A stretch of DNA of 64,000 nt from Helcobacillus massiliensis (GTDB lineage Bacteria; Actinomycetota; Actinomycetes; Actinomycetales; Dermabacteraceae), in the NCBI RefSeq assembly GCF_014191425.1, contig NZ_JACHWP010000001.1:682001-746000 (forward strand). The letters are read 5' to 3'. The first letter of the stretch is position 1. Every line of letters begins with the position of its first letter. The position numbers were made by a program, and so were the translations under genes. Shown one piece after another: positions 25,578-33,664 of this stretch. The notes beneath the pieces are model-generated. The model worked only from the letters and a program-made list of their open reading frames with translations. It did no database searches and was not told where the DNA came from.

Positions 25578-25994
25578 TCAGGAGGCGATCTGCGACCGCT
25601 TGGCGTCCACGGCCCGACCCGCTTCCTCAGCGACCGCCTCAGCGCCCGCGCCGGCGGAGGCGGTGACGACCGCACCGATCAGGCCCTCCACCAGCGGCGC
25701 ATCCGACAGGATCACCCGCTCGGCGACCTGCGGGTCCAGGAACTCCAGCGCCATCTGCGCGGACAGCACGGCGGAGCCGATGTCGCACAGCACCACCGCG
25801 CCCGGCGCGTCCTCACCGGAGGTGACGGTCTCGATCGCGGCTGAGATGGCGGCGGCGTCGGTGCCGGTGGATCCGTCGGCCGTGCCCGCTGCGATCTCGA
25901 TCGGCGGGCCCTCACCGCGCACCATCTCCATCGCGAGGTCCACGGCGGCGCGCGCCAGGGCGGGGGAGTGGGACACCACCACGATGCCGGTCAT
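25578..25994 (-). CDS. dhaM: Dihydroxyacetone kinase phosphotransfer subunit DhaM (EIIA-like)
   Basis: Carries phosphate from the PTS to DhaL-ADP. The 138-residue protein is a mannose-type EIIA domain with the phosphorylated His9 in VVVSHSPALA and the conserved VVLCDIGSAVLSAQMALEFL. It lacks the HPr and EI-like domains fused to DhaM in E. coli, so it must be charged by a separate HPr. The start ATG overlaps the dhaL stop (ATGA). It is the third gene of dhaK-dhaL-dhaM. Confidence 0.92.
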   Translation of the reverse strand: MTGIVVVSHSPALARAAVDLAMEMVRGEGPPIEIAAGTADGSTGTDAAAISAAIETVTSGEDAPGAVVLCDIGSAVLSAQMALEFLDPQVAERVILSDAPLVEGLIGAVVTASAGAGAEAVAEEAGRAVDAKRSQIAS

Positions 25995-26628
25995 GCTGCT
26001 GCTCCCACGGCGGCCTGCAGCGCTTCCAGCAGCAGCACCGCGGACTGCGAACCGGGGTCGATGTGCCCCTTCGCCCGCTCACCCACATAGGAGGCGCGGC
26101 CCTTCGTGGCGACCGAGTCGATCACGGCGTCCCGTCCTTCACGCGCGGCTGCGACCGCAGCGGTGAGCATCGCTGTGATATCTGCTCCTTCGGCTGCCGC
26201 CTCCTTCGCCGCGTCAGCTGCGGGACGGAGAGCATCGAGCATCGTCTTCTCCCCGATGTCCGCCTTTCCGCGCTGTGCAACACCAGCCGCTGCGGCGTCG
26301 AGGGCAGCGGCGAGCGCTTCGGCATCGAGATCGGCGGCGTCGCCAGCGCCCTGGGCGAATCGGAGGAAGAACGTGCCGTACAGGGGACCTGAGGCACCGC
26401 CGACGGCGGAGACGAGCGACATGCCGACCTTCTTCGCGAGCGCAGCGGGCGTCTCGAACTCAGCGTCGGCGACGGCGTCCGCGGCGGCGCGCATCCCTCG
26501 CTTCATGTTGGTGCCGTGGTCCGCATCGCCGATGGCGGCGTCCAGGTCCGTCAGTTCTGCGGCGTGCTCAGCGAGGGAGTCGGCGGCAGTGCTGATCCAG
26601 GCGATGAGTTCAGACGTGGTGAGGGTGC

Positions 26629-26632
<4 letters not shown>
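25991..26632 (-). CDS. dhaL: Dihydroxyacetone kinase ADP-binding subunit DhaL
   Basis: Holds ADP/ATP and phosphorylates dihydroxyacetone bound to DhaK. The 213-residue protein has the Mg-nucleotide motif LDAAIGDADHGTNMKRG (about 30-46, Asp31/36/38) and the GGASGPLYGTFFLRF motif. ATG 26632 overlaps the dhaK stop and ends where dhaM begins, so the three genes are coupled. An in-frame upstream extension lies within dhaK and is ignored. Confidence 0.94.
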
Positions 26633-27630
<998 letters not shown>

Positions 27631-27719: not shown

Positions 27720-29885
27720 TCAGTGCTTCTTCCGGCCCTTCCCATTTCCCTTGCCCTTGCCCTTGCCGTGACCGGGCTTGTCCTTGCCGTGACCGGGCTT
27801 GTCCTTGCCCTTGCCGGGCTTCTGATCGGCGTGGTCGGGGCGGTTGCCGCGGCGCGGCAGCACCTGCACCACGGTCGGGCGGGGACCGGTGCCGTTGTAG
27901 TCCGGAAAGAAGGAGTGCTGGTCGGCGAAGGTGCCGTCCTCACCGGGGTGCTGGACGGACACGAATACGGACTCGTCGCGGTCGTGGACCACGGGGCCGC
28001 AGGTCTCGCCTTCGCGCGGCACGGACAGGAACTGCTCCACACGGCCGCGCTCCTCGCCCTCCAGGGTGACGCGGAAGAGGCCGTCGTTGTAGCCGATGCC
28101 GCCGGGGGCGCCGTCGGTGGAGATCCAGAGGTTGCCGACGGAGTCGAAGGCGACGTTGTCCGGGCACGAGATCGGGGAGACCTTGTCCACCGGGAAACCG
28201 GAGAAGTACACCGGGTCGCCCTGCGCCGGATCACCGGCCACCAGGAGGATGTTCCACGCGAAGGTCTGCGACGCCTGGTCGCCGAGCTCGTCGATCTCGA
28301 TCACGTGGCCGTCGCGGTTCTTGGCGCGCGGGTTCGCTTCGTCGGCGGGTGCCTTGCCGGCGGCGCCGCGGTCGGAGTTCTTCGTGCACGCCATGTACAC
28401 CTTGCGGCTCACGAGGGACGGCTCGACATCCTCCGGGCGGTCCATCTTCGTGGCGCCGACGGCGTCCGCGGCAGCGCGGGTGTTCACCAGCACCTCCTCC
28501 AGCGTGAAGCCCTCAACGGCGGACTCGCCGTCCTTCACGAGGGCGATCCACTCGCCGGAGCCGTCGAAGGCGCCGTCGGAGGGGAGCTCGGCGCTGCCGG
28601 TGATCTCAGCGGCGGGGGAGTTGCCGGTGAAGCGGGCGACGTACAGGTCGCCCTTCTCCAGCAGGGTCATGTTGTGGGCGCGATCGCCTTCGCAATAGCG
28701 GTCAGCGGAGACGAACTTGTAGAGGTACTCGAATGCCTCGTCGTCACCGGTGTAGGCGACGGCGCGGCCGTCCTCACCGATGATGATGTTGGCGCCCTCA
28801 TGCTTGAGGCGTCCGAGAGACGTGTGCTTGCGGGGTGTGGAGGTCGGGTCCCACGGATCCACCTCGACGATGTAGCCGAAGCGGTTCGGTTCGTTCTCGT
28901 AGCCGTCGATGCGGGAGTCGAAGCGGTCGTACTTCTTCTCCCAGCCGCGGGCGGTGCCCTCGGTATTGGTGACGCCGTAGCGCTTGTTCGACCCGTAGGA
29001 GGCGCTGCCCAGGAAGTAGCTGTGGAAGTTCTCCTCACCGGAGAGGATGGTGCCCCACGGGGTGAGACCGCCGGAGCAGTTGCCGAGGGTGCCGAGCACG
29101 CGGCGCCCCTCCGGATCCTCCTTGGTCTTCACGGCGTCGCTGCCAGCGAGGGGGCCGGTGAGTTCGAAGACCTCGTCGAGGAGGATGCGGCGGTTCAGCG
29201 GGGCGTCGACGATGGGGGAGTAGGGGCAGGTGCGGTTCTTGCGCTCCAGCTCCACCACGGACAGGCCGTGAGCGGCCATGCCGATCTCGATCACATCGTC
29301 TTCGCTGGTGCCCTCGGGCAGCATGATCTGCTCGTTGGTGTATTCGTGGTTGGCGAACATGACGGCCTTCTTCCCGGCCGTGCCCGGCTGCTCCTGAATC
29401 GCGGAGTAGTCGTTGTTGTAGCCGAAGGCGCGCTTCTGCTGCTCGGCGGACTGCTTGGCCCAGTCGAACTCGGGTGCGTCGGAGAACAGGCGGTCGCCCC
29501 AGCGGATGACGGTGTGCCAGTCGAAGCCCTCGGGCACGGTCAGCTCATCCACGGTGTGCTCGACCGGGGCGATGGCGTCGAAGCGGAGCTTCGAGCCGCC
29601 GGGGGCCGACGGCTTCAGGCCGAAGGCGGCGCCGGGGGCCTCGGCAGCGGTGGCAGGAGCAGCGCCCTGGGTACCGGCGGCGGCGATGGCGACTGCGGCA
29701 GCGGCGCCGCCGCCGAGGAGGGCGCGGCGGGAGAGGGCGCCGGAGGCGACGTCGCGGAAGTAGGAGTTGTCGGAAGTGTTGCACAGTGCGCCGACGCACT
29801 GGTTGCCGCACTTGAGCGCACAGGTGACGGCTGAGCGCTTCCCGGCGACGTGGTCCTTCATCAGCAGGGGCAGACGAATGGGCAT
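27720..29885 (-). CDS. phoX: PhoX-family alkaline phosphatase, Tat exported
   Basis: The 721-residue protein belongs to the Ca/Fe-dependent PhoX phosphatases, which release phosphate from organic esters outside the cell. It has the usual long N-terminal region with CALKCGNQC and NTSDNSYFRDV, then a twin-arginine signal (SRRALLGGGAAAAVAIAAAG, about 52-71). The catalytic core includes NCSGGLTPWGTILSGEENF and a DNVAFDSVGNLWISTDG segment near the C terminus. The last ~38 residues are an unusual Lys/Gly/His tail with KDKPGHG repeats. ATG 29885 follows AAAGGA. A Pho-box-like repeat array lies 70-110 bases upstream. Confidence 0.93.
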   Translation of the reverse strand: MPIRLPLLMKDHVAGKRSAVTCALKCGNQCVGALCNTSDNSYFRDVASGALSRRALLGGGAAAAVAIAAAGTQGAAPATAAEAPGAAFGLKPSAPGGSKLRFDAIAPVEHTVDELTVPEGFDWHTVIRWGDRLFSDAPEFDWAKQSAEQQKRAFGYNNDYSAIQEQPGTAGKKAVMFANHEYTNEQIMLPEGTSEDDVIEIGMAAHGLSVVELERKNRTCPYSPIVDAPLNRRILLDEVFELTGPLAGSDAVKTKEDPEGRRVLGTLGNCSGGLTPWGTILSGEENFHSYFLGSASYGSNKRYGVTNTEGTARGWEKKYDRFDSRIDGYENEPNRFGYIVEVDPWDPTSTPRKHTSLGRLKHEGANIIIGEDGRAVAYTGDDEAFEYLYKFVSADRYCEGDRAHNMTLLEKGDLYVARFTGNSPAAEITGSAELPSDGAFDGSGEWIALVKDGESAVEGFTLEEVLVNTRAAADAVGATKMDRPEDVEPSLVSRKVYMACTKNSDRGAAGKAPADEANPRAKNRDGHVIEIDELGDQASQTFAWNILLVAGDPAQGDPVYFSGFPVDKVSPISCPDNVAFDSVGNLWISTDGAPGGIGYNDGLFRVTLEGEERGRVEQFLSVPREGETCGPVVHDRDESVFVSVQHPGEDGTFADQHSFFPDYNGTGPRPTVVQVLPRRGNRPDHADQKPGKGKDKPGHGKDKPGHGKGKGKGNGKGRKKH
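27761..27822 (-). repeat. 21-base tandem repeat coding for the basic tail of PhoX
   Basis: The segment GCCGTGACCGGGCTTGTCCT recurs with a period of 21 bases (copies beginning at 27765 and 27786), followed by a shorter degenerate copy. It encodes KDKPGHG units and runs into KGKGKGNGKG. Such repeats can change copy number by slippage. Confidence 0.7.
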
Positions 29886-30068
29886 GGGGGAGAGATCCTT
29901 TCGACGGTGACCGGCGCTTCTGCGCACGGCCGCCATCGATGCTGGACCCCGCGGGTGACCCGATGCCCACACTGCGGTGACCGATGGGTAAACAAGCGGC
30001 ATGAGATCGGCAATGGGTATTGCCTGCCCGTGACGGAACCGCTAGCCCCGTTATCGGAGCGTGACGAA
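29886..30068 (-). promoter_or_regulatory. phoX control region with Pho-box-like repeats
   Basis: On the plus strand GGTGACC (29954-29960), GGTGACC (29976-29982) and GGTAAAC (29987-29993) lie at exact multiples of 11 bases, with a degenerate unit at 29965. Read on the minus strand these are GGTCACC/GTTTACC, the direct-repeat units of the actinobacterial PhoP box (GTTCACC consensus, 11-base period). Their position upstream of phoX fits phosphate-starvation control. No other gene is visible here. Confidence 0.6.
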
Positions 30069-30145: not shown

Positions 30146-32806
30146 TCAGTCCTGACGGATCACGATCGCCAGCGGCGTCTGCTGACGCCCCTGGCCCAGC
30201 GGGTTGTCCGCGAACATCGCACCGAGGGCCGCTTCGGTGTCGGACACGTCCGAGCCGAGCACGTTGCGGCCGAGGTCGTTGGCGTCCATCACGACAGTGC
30301 CCTGGAATCCGGCGAGCACATCCGCGGGCAGATCGAGGCCCCGCACCATGGCGCTGAGGCGGCGGGCCACCGCGTCCGGGTCCTTCGGCGGCAGCTTTGC
30401 GGATACGTTGGACGGGTACGCGGAGTACTCGGTGGGGCCGTCGATCGCGCGGACGTTCGCGCCGGCGAGGTCGTAGAACAGGCCCTTGCGGCCCACCAGC
30501 TTGCCGACTGCTCCGGCGAGCGCAGCACCGGCGATGCGCGGCAGGCCGGCTTCACGGATCGCCAGCTCCATCGTGAACGGGCTGCCCAGGCCGATGCCGG
30601 CGGGGGTGCGGGTCACGAATCGGCTGAGCACGTTTGCGCCGATGGACGGCTTGATCTCCCAGGTGAAGTAGGAGCGGCCCTGGGAGATCGCGATGATCTT
30701 CTCGCTGATGAACAGATACCAGTCCTTGCCGGCGGGAAGGTCCTCCGGCTTCGCCTGCTGGGCGAAGTCCGCGAGGTACTGTTCGGTGAAGTCCTCGATG
30801 CGGGTGTCGCGGTCCACCAGACCGGTCTGGATCGGGTAGCGGCGGTAGGTCTTCTGATCGTGACTGGAGCGGATGTCCAGCTCCTTGCCCGGGTTCGCAA
30901 CGAACGGGCTCTTGTGCTCGATGACCTTCTCCGCCTTCTTCTCGGCGACGCCGTTCGCGGGGTCGATGAACTGGCGCATCCACAGCTCCACGTTCAGAAT
31001 GCGCCAGAACAGCAGAGTCCCGTGGTTCTTCGGATGCTTGATGTAGTCCTCGAACAGGGCGATGACGGTCGGAGCATCGAAGTAGGGGCGGGAGGCGAAC
31101 GAGTCCGACTTGAAGATCGCGTACAGGGAGTTCTTGATGCGGACGAACCACTCCTGCTCCGGGGTGGTGAAGCCGATCTTGTTGCGGCGCTTGGAGATCA
31201 TGTCCGGCAGCACCGGGTCCATGGACTCGCGCAGGATGCGCTTGTTCCAGCCGTCGGAGAGGATCGCGTCCTCGCTGAGGGTGAACAGGTAGCGCATGAG
31301 CTCCTTGTCCACGAACGGGACGCGGCCCTCGAGGCTGAAGCGCATTGTGTTCTTGTCCTCGTAGCGCAGCAGCGACGGCAGCGAGTTGTGGAACGTGTCC
31401 TCGATGAGGCGCATCTTCAGGTTGTCCGAGACGGAGGAGACCTTCTCGTTGCGGAAGCGCTCAGCGAACTCGCTGTTGAGCAGCGGCTCCATGCTGGTGG
31501 TGTTGCGCAGACGCATCTTCGCCATCAGCAGTTTGCGGGCGATGTCGCGGGAGCGGAACATCTCCTTGGCGAGGGCGAAGAACTGCTTGCGGGCCTTCAG
31601 CTGTCGCCAGTACACGTAGTAGTACGGGTTGTAGCCGGCCATCATCTCGTCCGCGCCCTGGCCGTCCAGCAGCACGGTGACGTGCTTGGTCGCCTCCCGC
31701 ATCACCACGTACTGGGCGTACGGGCCGGTGGAGATGATCGGCTCCTCCTGGGTGCGCACGAAGTCCTCGAGGTCGGTGAGGAAGCTGCTGGCGTCCGGGT
31801 GGATCTTGTGCGCGGCGATCTGGCCGTCGTACCGGTTGAGGAGGGAGTCCACGTAGGCCTCCTCATCGTTGTTCGACTTCGGGAACACGGCACTGAAGGT
31901 GTTCTGGCGGGAGCCGACGGAGTCGTACACGTCGTCGTCACCGCCCTGCTTGAGGTGCTCGGCGATGACGGCCGCCACGGCGGAGGAGTCGAGGCCGCCG
32001 GACAGGGACGTGCCGACGGAGACGTCCGCCTGCAGGCGCATGCGGATCGACTCGCGCAGGCGCTCACCGTACTCGTCCCGGACCTTCTCGGAGTAGGGGG
32101 TGCCGGGAGTCTTCGCCAGCTCCTTCAGGTCCTCTTCGAGGGTGGTGTACTTCTCGGCACTGAGCCCGCCCTCGGTGATGGTGACGACCTCACCGGAGCG
32201 GACGCGGCGGATGTCCTGGAAGAAGGTCTCATCGCCTTCGTCCTGCACTCGGAACTTCAGGTAGCGGTAGACGGCGCGGTCGTTCGGCTGGGGCGTGAAC
32301 TGCTCAGCGGCGAGGATCGACTTGATCTCGGAGCCGAACAGGAGGCGGCCGCTCTGCTCATCGAACCAGTAGTAGACCGGCTTGATGCCGAAGTGGTCAC
32401 GAGCGATGACCAGGGTGTCGGTCTGCGTATCCGCGATGGCGATGGCGAACATGCCGTTGAAGCGGTCGAACGCCTCGGTGCCCCACTGCATGTAGGAGTG
32501 CAGCACGACTTCGGTGTCGCTCGCGGTGGTGAAAGTGTGGCCGAGGGCGGTGAGCTCCTCGCGCAGTTCGGTGAAGTTGTAGACCTCGCCGTTGTACGCC
32601 ATGGCGTAGCGCCGGTCCTCGCTGTAGAAGGGCTGGGCGCCGCCTTCGTGATCGATCACCGACAGGCGGCGATGCGCCAGGCCGATCGATCCGCCGGTGA
32701 AGGTGCCCTCGCCGTCAGGTCCGCGATGGCGCTGCGCATCGTTCATTCGGGCGACGATGTCGCCGGTTGAGGCACCGAAGCCGAAGCTTCCAGCGATTCC
32801 GCACAT
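30146..32806 (-). CDS. asnB: Glutamine-hydrolysing asparagine synthetase with C-terminal F420-0:gamma-glutamyl-ligase-like domain
   Basis: The 886-residue protein begins with the class II glutaminase Cys2 (MCGIAG), with RHRGPDGEG and YNGEVYNF. The synthetase domain follows, with the PP-loop SLSGGLDSS (267-275) and LLDGQGADEMMAGY. AsnB proteins normally end near residue 600-640. Here ~235 more residues (from about 650) contain DWYLFISEKIIAISQGR, GIGLGSPFTMELAIREAG, AIDGPTEYSAYPSNVSAKL and VVMDANDLGRNVLG, which I recognise as resembling the CofE / COG1478 F420-0:gamma-glutamyl ligase family. The role of that domain is unknown. AAGGAAGG lies nine bases before ATG 32806. Confidence 0.88.
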   Translation of the reverse strand: MCGIAGSFGFGASTGDIVARMNDAQRHRGPDGEGTFTGGSIGLAHRRLSVIDHEGGAQPFYSEDRRYAMAYNGEVYNFTELREELTALGHTFTTASDTEVVLHSYMQWGTEAFDRFNGMFAIAIADTQTDTLVIARDHFGIKPVYYWFDEQSGRLLFGSEIKSILAAEQFTPQPNDRAVYRYLKFRVQDEGDETFFQDIRRVRSGEVVTITEGGLSAEKYTTLEEDLKELAKTPGTPYSEKVRDEYGERLRESIRMRLQADVSVGTSLSGGLDSSAVAAVIAEHLKQGGDDDVYDSVGSRQNTFSAVFPKSNNDEEAYVDSLLNRYDGQIAAHKIHPDASSFLTDLEDFVRTQEEPIISTGPYAQYVVMREATKHVTVLLDGQGADEMMAGYNPYYYVYWRQLKARKQFFALAKEMFRSRDIARKLLMAKMRLRNTTSMEPLLNSEFAERFRNEKVSSVSDNLKMRLIEDTFHNSLPSLLRYEDKNTMRFSLEGRVPFVDKELMRYLFTLSEDAILSDGWNKRILRESMDPVLPDMISKRRNKIGFTTPEQEWFVRIKNSLYAIFKSDSFASRPYFDAPTVIALFEDYIKHPKNHGTLLFWRILNVELWMRQFIDPANGVAEKKAEKVIEHKSPFVANPGKELDIRSSHDQKTYRRYPIQTGLVDRDTRIEDFTEQYLADFAQQAKPEDLPAGKDWYLFISEKIIAISQGRSYFTWEIKPSIGANVLSRFVTRTPAGIGLGSPFTMELAIREAGLPRIAGAALAGAVGKLVGRKGLFYDLAGANVRAIDGPTEYSAYPSNVSAKLPPKDPDAVARRLSAMVRGLDLPADVLAGFQGTVVMDANDLGRNVLGSDVSDTEAALGAMFADNPLGQGRQQTPLAIVIRQD

Positions 32807-32900: not shown

Positions 32901-32908
32901 ATCCACGG

Positions 32909-32982
32909 TCGGGCTGACAGGATTTGAACCTGCGACCCCACGACCCCCAGTCGTGTGCGCTACCAAACTGCGCCACAGCCCG
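32909..32982 (-). tRNA. tRNA-Pro (anticodon GGG)
   Basis: Read on the minus strand, the sequence folds into a full cloverleaf: acceptor CGGGCTG/CAGCCCG with discriminator A, D arm GCGC-AGTTTGGTA-GCGC, anticodon arm CACGA-CTGGGGG-TCGTG, five-base variable loop, and T arm GCAGG-TTCAAAT-CCTGT. The loop gives anticodon GGG, reading proline codon CCC. CCA is not encoded. A TATAGT -10 box lies about 18 bases upstream (33005-33000). Confidence 0.95.
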
Positions 32983-33005: not shown

Positions 33006-33097
33006 GCGAAGCCCCTGGCCCGGGGCGAATTGAGCTGACGTGACGCTCAGCACCCGTCGGCCGGCAGTGCGTTCTGGGCCCGATGGGAGGACAGAAT

Positions 33098-33142
33098 GCC
33101 CCGATCGAGGCCGATCAGGGCAAAGTCTCCCTAAAATCGGCC
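33098..33142 (+). promoter_or_regulatory. Nested hairpins upstream of garA
   Basis: Within the 247 bases between the tRNA and garA, GGCCGAT (33109-33115) pairs perfectly with ATCGGCC (33136-33142), with GGG/CCC pairing inside. An alternative, mutually exclusive stem joins 33098-33106 with 33113-33121 (GCCC and GATC arms). Downstream lies TTTGCA (33152 region) and a possible -10. Two competing stems hint at a structured leader or an operator. The rest of the gap shows nothing I can assign. Confidence 0.4.
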
Positions 33143-33229
33143 ACTGTAAGCGCCTTTGCAGGCCTCGGCATGACAAGATGGAACCTCCCGGGCGTGGATC
33201 CGCCCGCTTGGCCGACAGAAGGAGAGAAC

Positions 33230-33664
33230 ATGTCTGACACGTTCGATGCACTGGACCCGTCGACGCAGACCACTGCTCTGTCCCCGTTGGCGGATGTCGA
33301 CTTCCCCGATGAGCAGGAGCGCGGGCTCAGCCCGAAGGAGCGCTCCGCCGTTGACGCACTGCCGGCGGACTCCGCTCTGCTGATCGTGCGCAAGGGCCCG
33401 AACCTGGGTGCCCGCTTCCTGCTGGACGCGGAGAAGACCGTGGCCGGCCGCCACCCCTCCTGCGACATCTTCCTCGACGACGTCACCGTGTCCCGGCGGC
33501 ACGTCGCATTCCTCCGTCACGGCGGCCAGTTCGTCGTGCGCGACATGGGCTCACTCAACGGCACCTACGTGGAGCGCGAGCGCGTCGACGAGGCGACCCT
33601 GGTCAACGGCCAGGAAGTGCAGATCGGCAAGTACCGAATGACCTTCCACCAGATCGTCTCGTGA
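33230..33664 (+). CDS. garA: FHA-domain signalling protein GarA/OdhI
   Basis: GarA (OdhI in corynebacteria) inhibits 2-oxoglutarate dehydrogenase and tunes glutamate metabolism; Ser/Thr kinases such as PknG/PknB switch it off by phosphorylating an N-terminal Thr. The 144-residue protein has a twin-threonine site (QTTALSP, Thr14/15) and an FHA domain (about 55-140) with GRHPSCDI, SRRHVAF and MGSLNGTYV, the phosphothreonine-binding residues. ATG 33230 follows GGAGAG. The ftsR GTG overlaps its stop. The order garA-ftsR-merR is conserved in actinobacteria. Confidence 0.93.
   Translation: MSDTFDALDPSTQTTALSPLADVDFPDEQERGLSPKERSAVDALPADSALLIVRKGPNLGARFLLDAEKTVAGRHPSCDIFLDDVTVSRRHVAFLRHGGQFVVRDMGSLNGTYVERERVDEATLVNGQEVQIGKYRMTFHQIVS

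Follow-up and report, generated by a model that had tools for sequence, protein, structure and literature searches.

A Helcobacillus asparagine synthetase-like protein with a C-terminal CofE-like domain, and its split, fused and decayed relatives

The window, the whole 64,000-nucleotide stretch of the Helcobacillus massiliensis contig NZ_JACHWP010000001.1 that we analysed, contains on its reverse strand an uninterrupted open reading frame (30146–32806) of 886 amino acids, running from an ATG start (MCGIAG) to a TGA stop. The product joins an AsnB-type glutamine amidotransferase/synthetase to a C-terminal CofE-like domain (Table 1). It scores 428 bits against the NCBIfam asparagine synthase model TIGR01536 (cut-off 267), and it retains 11 of 11 catalytic motif residues in the AsnB half (including Cys2, YNGE and SGGxDS) and 45 of 45 invariants in the CofE-like half, counted against sets that were defined with the window protein among their members. 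With both halves intact, the protein appears by these residues to be of an ancestral-looking type. Its gene, the sole Asn_synthase gene in the genome, is flanked by genes for a PhoX phosphatase (27720–30002), a dihydroxyacetone kinase DhaK/DhaL (25991–27630), an FHA-domain protein (33083–33664) and tRNA-Pro(ggg) (32907–32982), and no functional link is apparent between the fusion and any of these four neighbours.

Table 1. Features of the fusion gene and its product, in window coordinates
Feature	Coordinates	Strand	Basis or remark
Fusion gene, AsnB-type glutamine amidotransferase/synthetase with C-terminal CofE-like ligase domain	30146..32806	(-)	Single ORF, Pfam, CofE fold
Ntn-type glutaminase domain, residues 1-166; Cys2, HRRLS, YNGE and SDTEV intact	32309..32806	(-)	PF13537 (GATase_7) 155 bits, residues 45-166
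Glutaminase catalytic Cys2	32801..32803	(-)	MCGIAG N-terminus; missing in decayed relatives
Asn_synthase (ATP-pyrophosphatase) domain, residues 247-611	30974..32068	(-)	PF00733 225 bits
SGGLDSS PP-loop motif, residues 269-275	31982..32002	(-)	Degenerate in L006, L013, L014, L017, L019, L023, L027
LDGQGADE motif, residues 380-387; Gln versus Glu (SGEGADE) in most unlinked AsnBs	31646..31669	(-)	
Linker, residues 612-632	30911..30973	(-)	From PF00733 match end to start of conserved tail
CofE-like domain, residues 633-886	30149..30910	(-)	AF2/Foldseek matches to CofE only; hhalign E 5e-8
FISEKIIAISQGR, residues 699-711, matching CofE HKVVSKAEGR	30674..30712	(-)	Alignment (SEKIIAISQGR to HKVVSKAEGR)
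GIGLGSPFTMELAI, tail motif, residues 737-750		(-)	
AIDGPT motif, residues 787-792; Asp invariant in the family	30431..30448	(-)	
AKLPPKDPD, matching CofE LLPxDPDASA	30374..30400	(-)	Alignment; changed in CofE-decayed paralogs
VMDANDLGRNVLG, residues 839-851, matching CofE VVxSDSFGR (VMDANDLG to VVxSDSFG)	30254..30292	(-)	Alignment
FADNPLGQG, invariant F-x-D-N-P-x-G-Q subfamily signature	30188..30214	(-)	Family alignment

A preliminary description of this DNA had read the protein as an AsnB with a C-terminal CofE-like domain and had quoted four tail motifs, all of which are present (FISEKIIAISQGR, GIGLGSPFTMELAI, AIDGPT and VMDANDLGRNVLG); the conserved tail begins a little before the boundary it gave, near residue 633 (coordinate about 30910). 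The Pfam comparison it suggested was indecisive for the window protein itself, which stays below the F420_ligase threshold (12.8 bits, cut-off 25), and NCBIfam returned no match for the tail, but relatives pass the Pfam cut-off (L099 at 42.5 bits, L079 at 40.2 and the fused protein of G052 at 50.8). An AF2 model of the tail, built from an alignment of 17 relatives, has a pLDDT of 87, and a Foldseek search of the PDB matched it to 2phn, 2g9i and 7uld (E about 1e-7 to 1e-6, probability 1.00, TM about 0.5), with the next match at E 1.2, so that below E 1 the list holds solely CofE entries. All three are structures of A. fulgidus CofE, the F420-0:gamma-glutamyl ligase. By hhalign, the tail profile aligned over 127 columns to a profile of nine bona fide actinobacterial CofE proteins (probability 94.8%, E 5e-8). 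These profile and model comparisons indicate that the window tail is a true CofE homologue with the CofE fold, as the preliminary description had proposed.

The tail resembles CofE and the N-terminal domain of FbiB (PF01996, COG1478; 2phn, 7uld) in fold, in its counterparts of the SK..GR, LPxDPD and D..G motifs and in its predicted amide-ligase activity, and the invariant Asp of AIDGPT is possibly the counterpart of the Asp in CofE AG(V/I)D, with an unsure register at this point. It differs from CofE in sharing only 11–15% identity in structural alignment, in having an extra segment around GIGLGSPxTMELAIREAG and in being found, as a fusion or in a pair with AsnB, in genomes that have no other CofE. 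After the VMDA motif it continues for about 45 residues, versus about 92 in CofE, so that part of the CofE C-terminal region (about 50 residues) seems to be missing, the exact register being uncertain there. In CofE, a domain-swapped hairpin of this region and R234 contact F420 (PMC10861534). FbiB, a CofE-nitroreductase fusion, provides a precedent for linking a CofE domain to another enzyme of its pathway, although the window fusion has another partner, order and pathway.

We considered whether the CofE-like domain serves in F420 synthesis or in folate polyglutamylation. A search of the window genome for CofE, in line with the suggestion of the preliminary description to look for F420 genes, found no other CofE at E 1e-3, and two other genomes (G040 and G052) encode a genuine CofE (about 200 bits) alongside the fusion, which therefore is not the F420 enzyme in them. 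F420 synthesis was rejected as the fusion's function on these two grounds together with the shortened C-terminal part. The chlamydial COG1478 protein CT611 is FolC2 and complements an E. coli folC mutant (PMC1971073), and this example of a CofE homologue with a role outside F420, in a bacterium that lacks the coenzyme, raises the reading that the CofE-like domain likewise carries out folate polyglutamylation. We regard this as very improbable, because a canonical FolC is encoded in the window genome (338 bits against a cut-off of 163), so that a FolC2 role is not needed; moreover, the window domain has a different partner, and we noticed no folate genes in the neighbourhood of any relative. 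A second FolC-like Mur ligase of the window genome (L134:826-2082; 104 bits to TIGR01499, below cut-off) adjoins a WhiB-like gene; it had been considered as a MurT and was set aside as such.

The CofE-like domain forms a distinct family that is fused to AsnB in two phyla, in Dermabacteraceae, Intrasporangiaceae, Actinomycetaceae, Microlunatus and Saccharibacteria, and stands alone in Patescibacteria, WOR-3, Chloroflexota and some Actinomycetota. Among loci from named species, fused forms were found in Brachybacterium, Dermabacter/Helcobacillus, Microlunatus, Actinomyces/Schaalia, Humibacillus and Saccharibacteria, and stand-alone forms in Actinopolymorpha, WOR-3 and MAGs labelled Thermotogota, Chloroflexi and Colwellbacteria. 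The domain was found in 35 of 47 genomes of the window's family, in 38 of 120 from the Humibacillus family and in 5 of 151 from the family to which Actinomyces mediterranea belongs; broader sampling gave 31 of 380 in a Patescibacteria sample (about 24 of them strong) and 25 of 396 in an Actinomycetota sample, this last count including more distant stand-alone homologues. A plasmid search returned no relatives, and viral contigs gave pattern matches yet no relatives, which ruled out phage or plasmid cargo.

Linkage to AsnB extends beyond the fusions. At 6 of 44 stand-alone loci (L037, L079, L104, L111, L114 and L117), spanning Chloroflexota, Actinomycetota and Patescibacteria, an AsnB gene directly precedes the CofE-like gene on the same strand, matching the fusion's order, with gaps of -3 to 15 bp and a longer overlap in L037; by chance, about 0.04–0.15 such adjacencies would be expected among 44 loci, assuming that AsnB accounts for 1/1000 to 1/300 of genes. 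In an AsnB tree, 12 unlinked AsnBs group in one clade (SH-aLRT 100) that contains no fused or operon AsnB; two rows labelled unlinked in this tree, L142 and L144, are a split-off copy and another fusion, respectively. This clade includes AsnBs of other Dermabacteraceae, WOR-3 and Saccharibacteria genomes, all without the tail, and we therefore rejected the possibility, raised in the preliminary description as an objection to its own reading, that the tail is a general feature of actinobacterial AsnBs.

The linked AsnBs also differ in sequence. Intact ones carry GQGADE or the variants GQAGDE, GQGGDE and GNGGDE, versus GEGADE in other Dermabacteraceae AsnBs, so that the Glu of SGEG(A/S)DE is Gln or Asn in intact fused and operon members (LDGQGADE in the window protein). 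E. coli-type asparagine synthetase B, which shares the GATase and Asn_synthase domains but has no tail, has the canonical Glu in an SGEGSDE motif, and this residue is important for acyl-adenylate formation in the E. coli enzyme; its replacement in the partner AsnBs counts against plain asparagine synthesis. The segment between the DE motif and ExRVPF spans 104–113 residues in partner AsnBs versus 127–131 in other Dermabacteraceae AsnBs. At one Patescibacteria locus (L111:6640-8471), AsnB is split between a glutaminase and a synthetase gene that overlap and precede the CofE-like gene.

AsnB is dispensable for the CofE-like part, since many genomes have the latter alone or with a decayed AsnB. 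Most of the stand-alone genomes tested have no AsnB (G316, G343, G388 and 10 of 15 Patescibacteria), which implies that a substrate shared by AsnB and the ligase is not required everywhere. AsnB co-occurrence in Patescibacteria (8/18 vs 3/19, p 0.08) is not significant and is biased by the inclusion of adjacent cases, and it was dropped as statistical support.

Decay of the AsnB half next to an intact CofE-like half is seen in Dermabacter, Microlunatus and several Brachybacterium, where Cys2, YNGE and the SGGxDS loop have been lost; the decayed AsnB halves are 23–43% identical to the window protein and their CofE-like halves 57–62%, with 44–45 of the 45 invariants. In the family of Humibacillus, the tree reveals an old duplication that gave rise to two clades. 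Four genomes (G455, G875, G930 and G949) have one copy that keeps its AsnB motifs and has a CofE-like half altered by QGR to QHR and KDPD changes or by a frameshift, and another copy with 45 of 45 CofE-like invariants and altered AsnB motifs. The AsnB-intact copies of G852 and G862 are entirely devoid of a CofE-like half, and so, in a separate case, is that of G438, a member of the window's family. G901 breaks the reciprocal pattern, with an AsnB-altered copy that lacks the CofE-like half and an AsnB-intact copy that reads QQR and keeps 44 of 45 invariants, and four genomes (G904, G864, G947 and G902) have a single fusion, altered in AsnB, and no other AsnB. A single duplication probably underlies the Intrasporangiaceae cases, which thus are not seven independent events; the decayed copies sit on long branches and their placement in the tree is unsure. 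In the comparisons made, a rough Nei-Gojobori estimate puts dN/dS higher for whichever half has decayed, and the direction flips between the two kinds of copy. All values are below 1, so that the decayed halves are still under some constraint, and the AsnB half of intact pairs, too, is under somewhat looser constraint than the CofE-like one.

This reciprocal decay, the usual outcome where a genome holds duplicated copies, is the strongest line of evidence. Its simplest interpretation has the two halves carrying out distinct activities of one pathway, both of benefit to some lineages, and the CofE-like ligase being the core, indispensable wherever the gene persists. The same pattern bears on the proposal that the protein is a plain asparagine synthetase whose CofE-derived tail is structural or regulatory. 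Such an enzyme would fit the TIGR01536 score, the intact AsnB motifs and the status of the fusion as the genome's only Asn_synthase gene, but an accessory tail predicts the opposite of what several relatives show, namely loss of the AsnB catalytic motifs with a nearly invariant tail. Given also that the tail is a stand-alone gene in many phyla and that intact members of the partner clade have Gln or Asn for the SGEGADE Glu, we consider this proposal improbable.

Starting from the established fold and homology of both halves, their conservation, the operon and fusion linkage and the reciprocal decay, we hold with moderate confidence that the protein would catalyse two separable amide-forming reactions, as a bifunctional enzyme of one non-F420 pathway. 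By analogy with the mechanism of CofE (PMC8498797, PMC10861534), the CofE-like domain would use a nucleoside triphosphate (GTP in CofE) to activate a carboxylate as an acyl phosphate, which it would then couple with an amino acid, in CofE glutamate. The AsnB half, to judge from known families, would hydrolyse glutamine, adenylate a carboxylate with ATP and amidate it with the ammonia released, most likely as an optional last step on the same acceptor or on the newly attached amino acid. The core step would be that of the CofE-like domain, because the domain occurs alone in many bacteria and is nearly invariant when the AsnB half decays. That the two steps share a pathway we infer, and the added amino acid, the acceptor and the order of the steps are guesses; a cell-envelope precursor is our tentative candidate for the acceptor, put forward with low confidence.

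A specific form of this idea, in which the AsnB half amidates the stem-peptide diaminopimelate (or a cross-bridge acid) like LtsA/AsnB1, with the CofE-like half extending that same stem by an amino acid, draws on several gene neighbourhoods. CofE-like genes lie upstream of mraZ-mraW-PBP at two Patescibacteria loci (L099 and L100, which are syntenic and hence count as one), in the order proC-yggT-asnB-cofE-divIVA at an actinobacterial locus (L079), next to LysM-M23 and YkuD/DacA genes at L102 and next to VanW/PG_binding_4 at L105. Actinobacterial and firmicute AsnB relatives amidate mDAP (PMC8554201, PMC7920481), and Dermabacteraceae have A4gamma mDAP peptidoglycan (PMC6090031). Most neighbours, however, are unrelated; the cell-wall context, read from the raw neighbourhoods and comprising the dcw cluster at the two syntenic Patescibacteria loci and DivIVA/YggT in one actinobacterium, is suggestive only. 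Carriers outside Dermabacteraceae are expected to have other wall types, and peptidoglycan type, with A4gamma fitting Dermabacteraceae, was not used as evidence.

The partner AsnB shares with the mDAP-amidating enzymes LtsA, AsnB and AsnB1 the two-domain amidotransferase architecture, which is known in Actinomycetota, but it differs from them in its CofE-like tail, in DGQGADE for SGEGADE and in a shorter substrate-region segment. It also falls outside the clade of the other Dermabacteraceae AsnBs, which we take to be LtsA-like, in a tree built without characterised LtsA/AsnB1 sequences, and G438 carries both AsnB types. The DE-ExRVPF segment is about 20 residues shorter in the partner AsnB, which probably lacks the extra loop of the mDAP-amidating enzymes (PMC8554201), assuming that the loop is located there. 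On this evidence, stem-peptide modification seems rather unlikely to us. The preliminary suggestion of a linked modification instead of plain asparagine synthesis gains support from the six operon loci, the fusions in two phyla, the reciprocal decay and DGQGADE, whereas its peptidoglycan acceptor, for which the context described above is suggestive, and its added glutamate are only candidates.

The acceptor might instead be a uronic acid of a surface glycan or a small peptide of the osmolyte or siderophore-like kind, to which the CofE-like half would couple an amino acid and which the AsnB half would amidate. This would agree with the closest non-AsnB NCBIfam families of the AsnB half, the XrtA-system (367 bits) and N-acetylglutaminylglutamine (328 bits) amidotransferases, both below their cut-offs, and with CofE-like genes that adjoin Wzy O-antigen ligase genes (L103/L104) or glycosyltransferase/GH57 genes (L101/L118). 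No such cluster surrounds the window fusion, with its tRNA-Pro, PhoX, dihydroxyacetone kinase and FHA neighbours, and we judge this version unlikely.

For the wider family, we lean slightly towards an undescribed system, composed of an AsnB-type amidotransferase and a non-F420 CofE-like amide ligase, that would produce a widespread amide, either an envelope component or a small molecule, in Actinomycetota, Patescibacteria and other phyla, with its activities split between paralogs by reciprocal decay. In a text search of the literature, no paper combined the terms for an AsnB/CofE-like fusion. A gene annotated as asparagine synthetase would thereby encode two enzymes in one chain, one adding ammonia and the other a CofE-related amide-forming ligase. 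CofE homologues in bacteria lacking F420 are likely labelled F420 ligases and the fusion ‘asparagine synthase’, and both labels look wrong. The family's presence in Saccharibacteria and in some very small Patescibacteria genomes, with few biosynthetic genes left, suggests that its product probably matters. Naturally split paralogs and those with reciprocal decay offer ready single-activity enzymes for dissecting the pathway.

CofE-like domains were also seen in other settings. In Actinomycetota, more distant CofE-like genes (L085–L087) stand directly before class-III aminotransferase, phosphatase-like and dnaX-like genes, possibly as another non-F420 CofE pathway, and at L088:5653-7826 a CofE-like gene overlaps an Orn/Lys/Arg decarboxylase gene by 4 bp, perhaps as a glutamyl-polyamine-type pathway. 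N-terminal TPR repeats are fused to CofE-like domains at L090, L092 and L094, and at a Patescibacteria locus (L112:5576-6985) a CofE-like domain is fused to an adenylate kinase directly downstream of secY.
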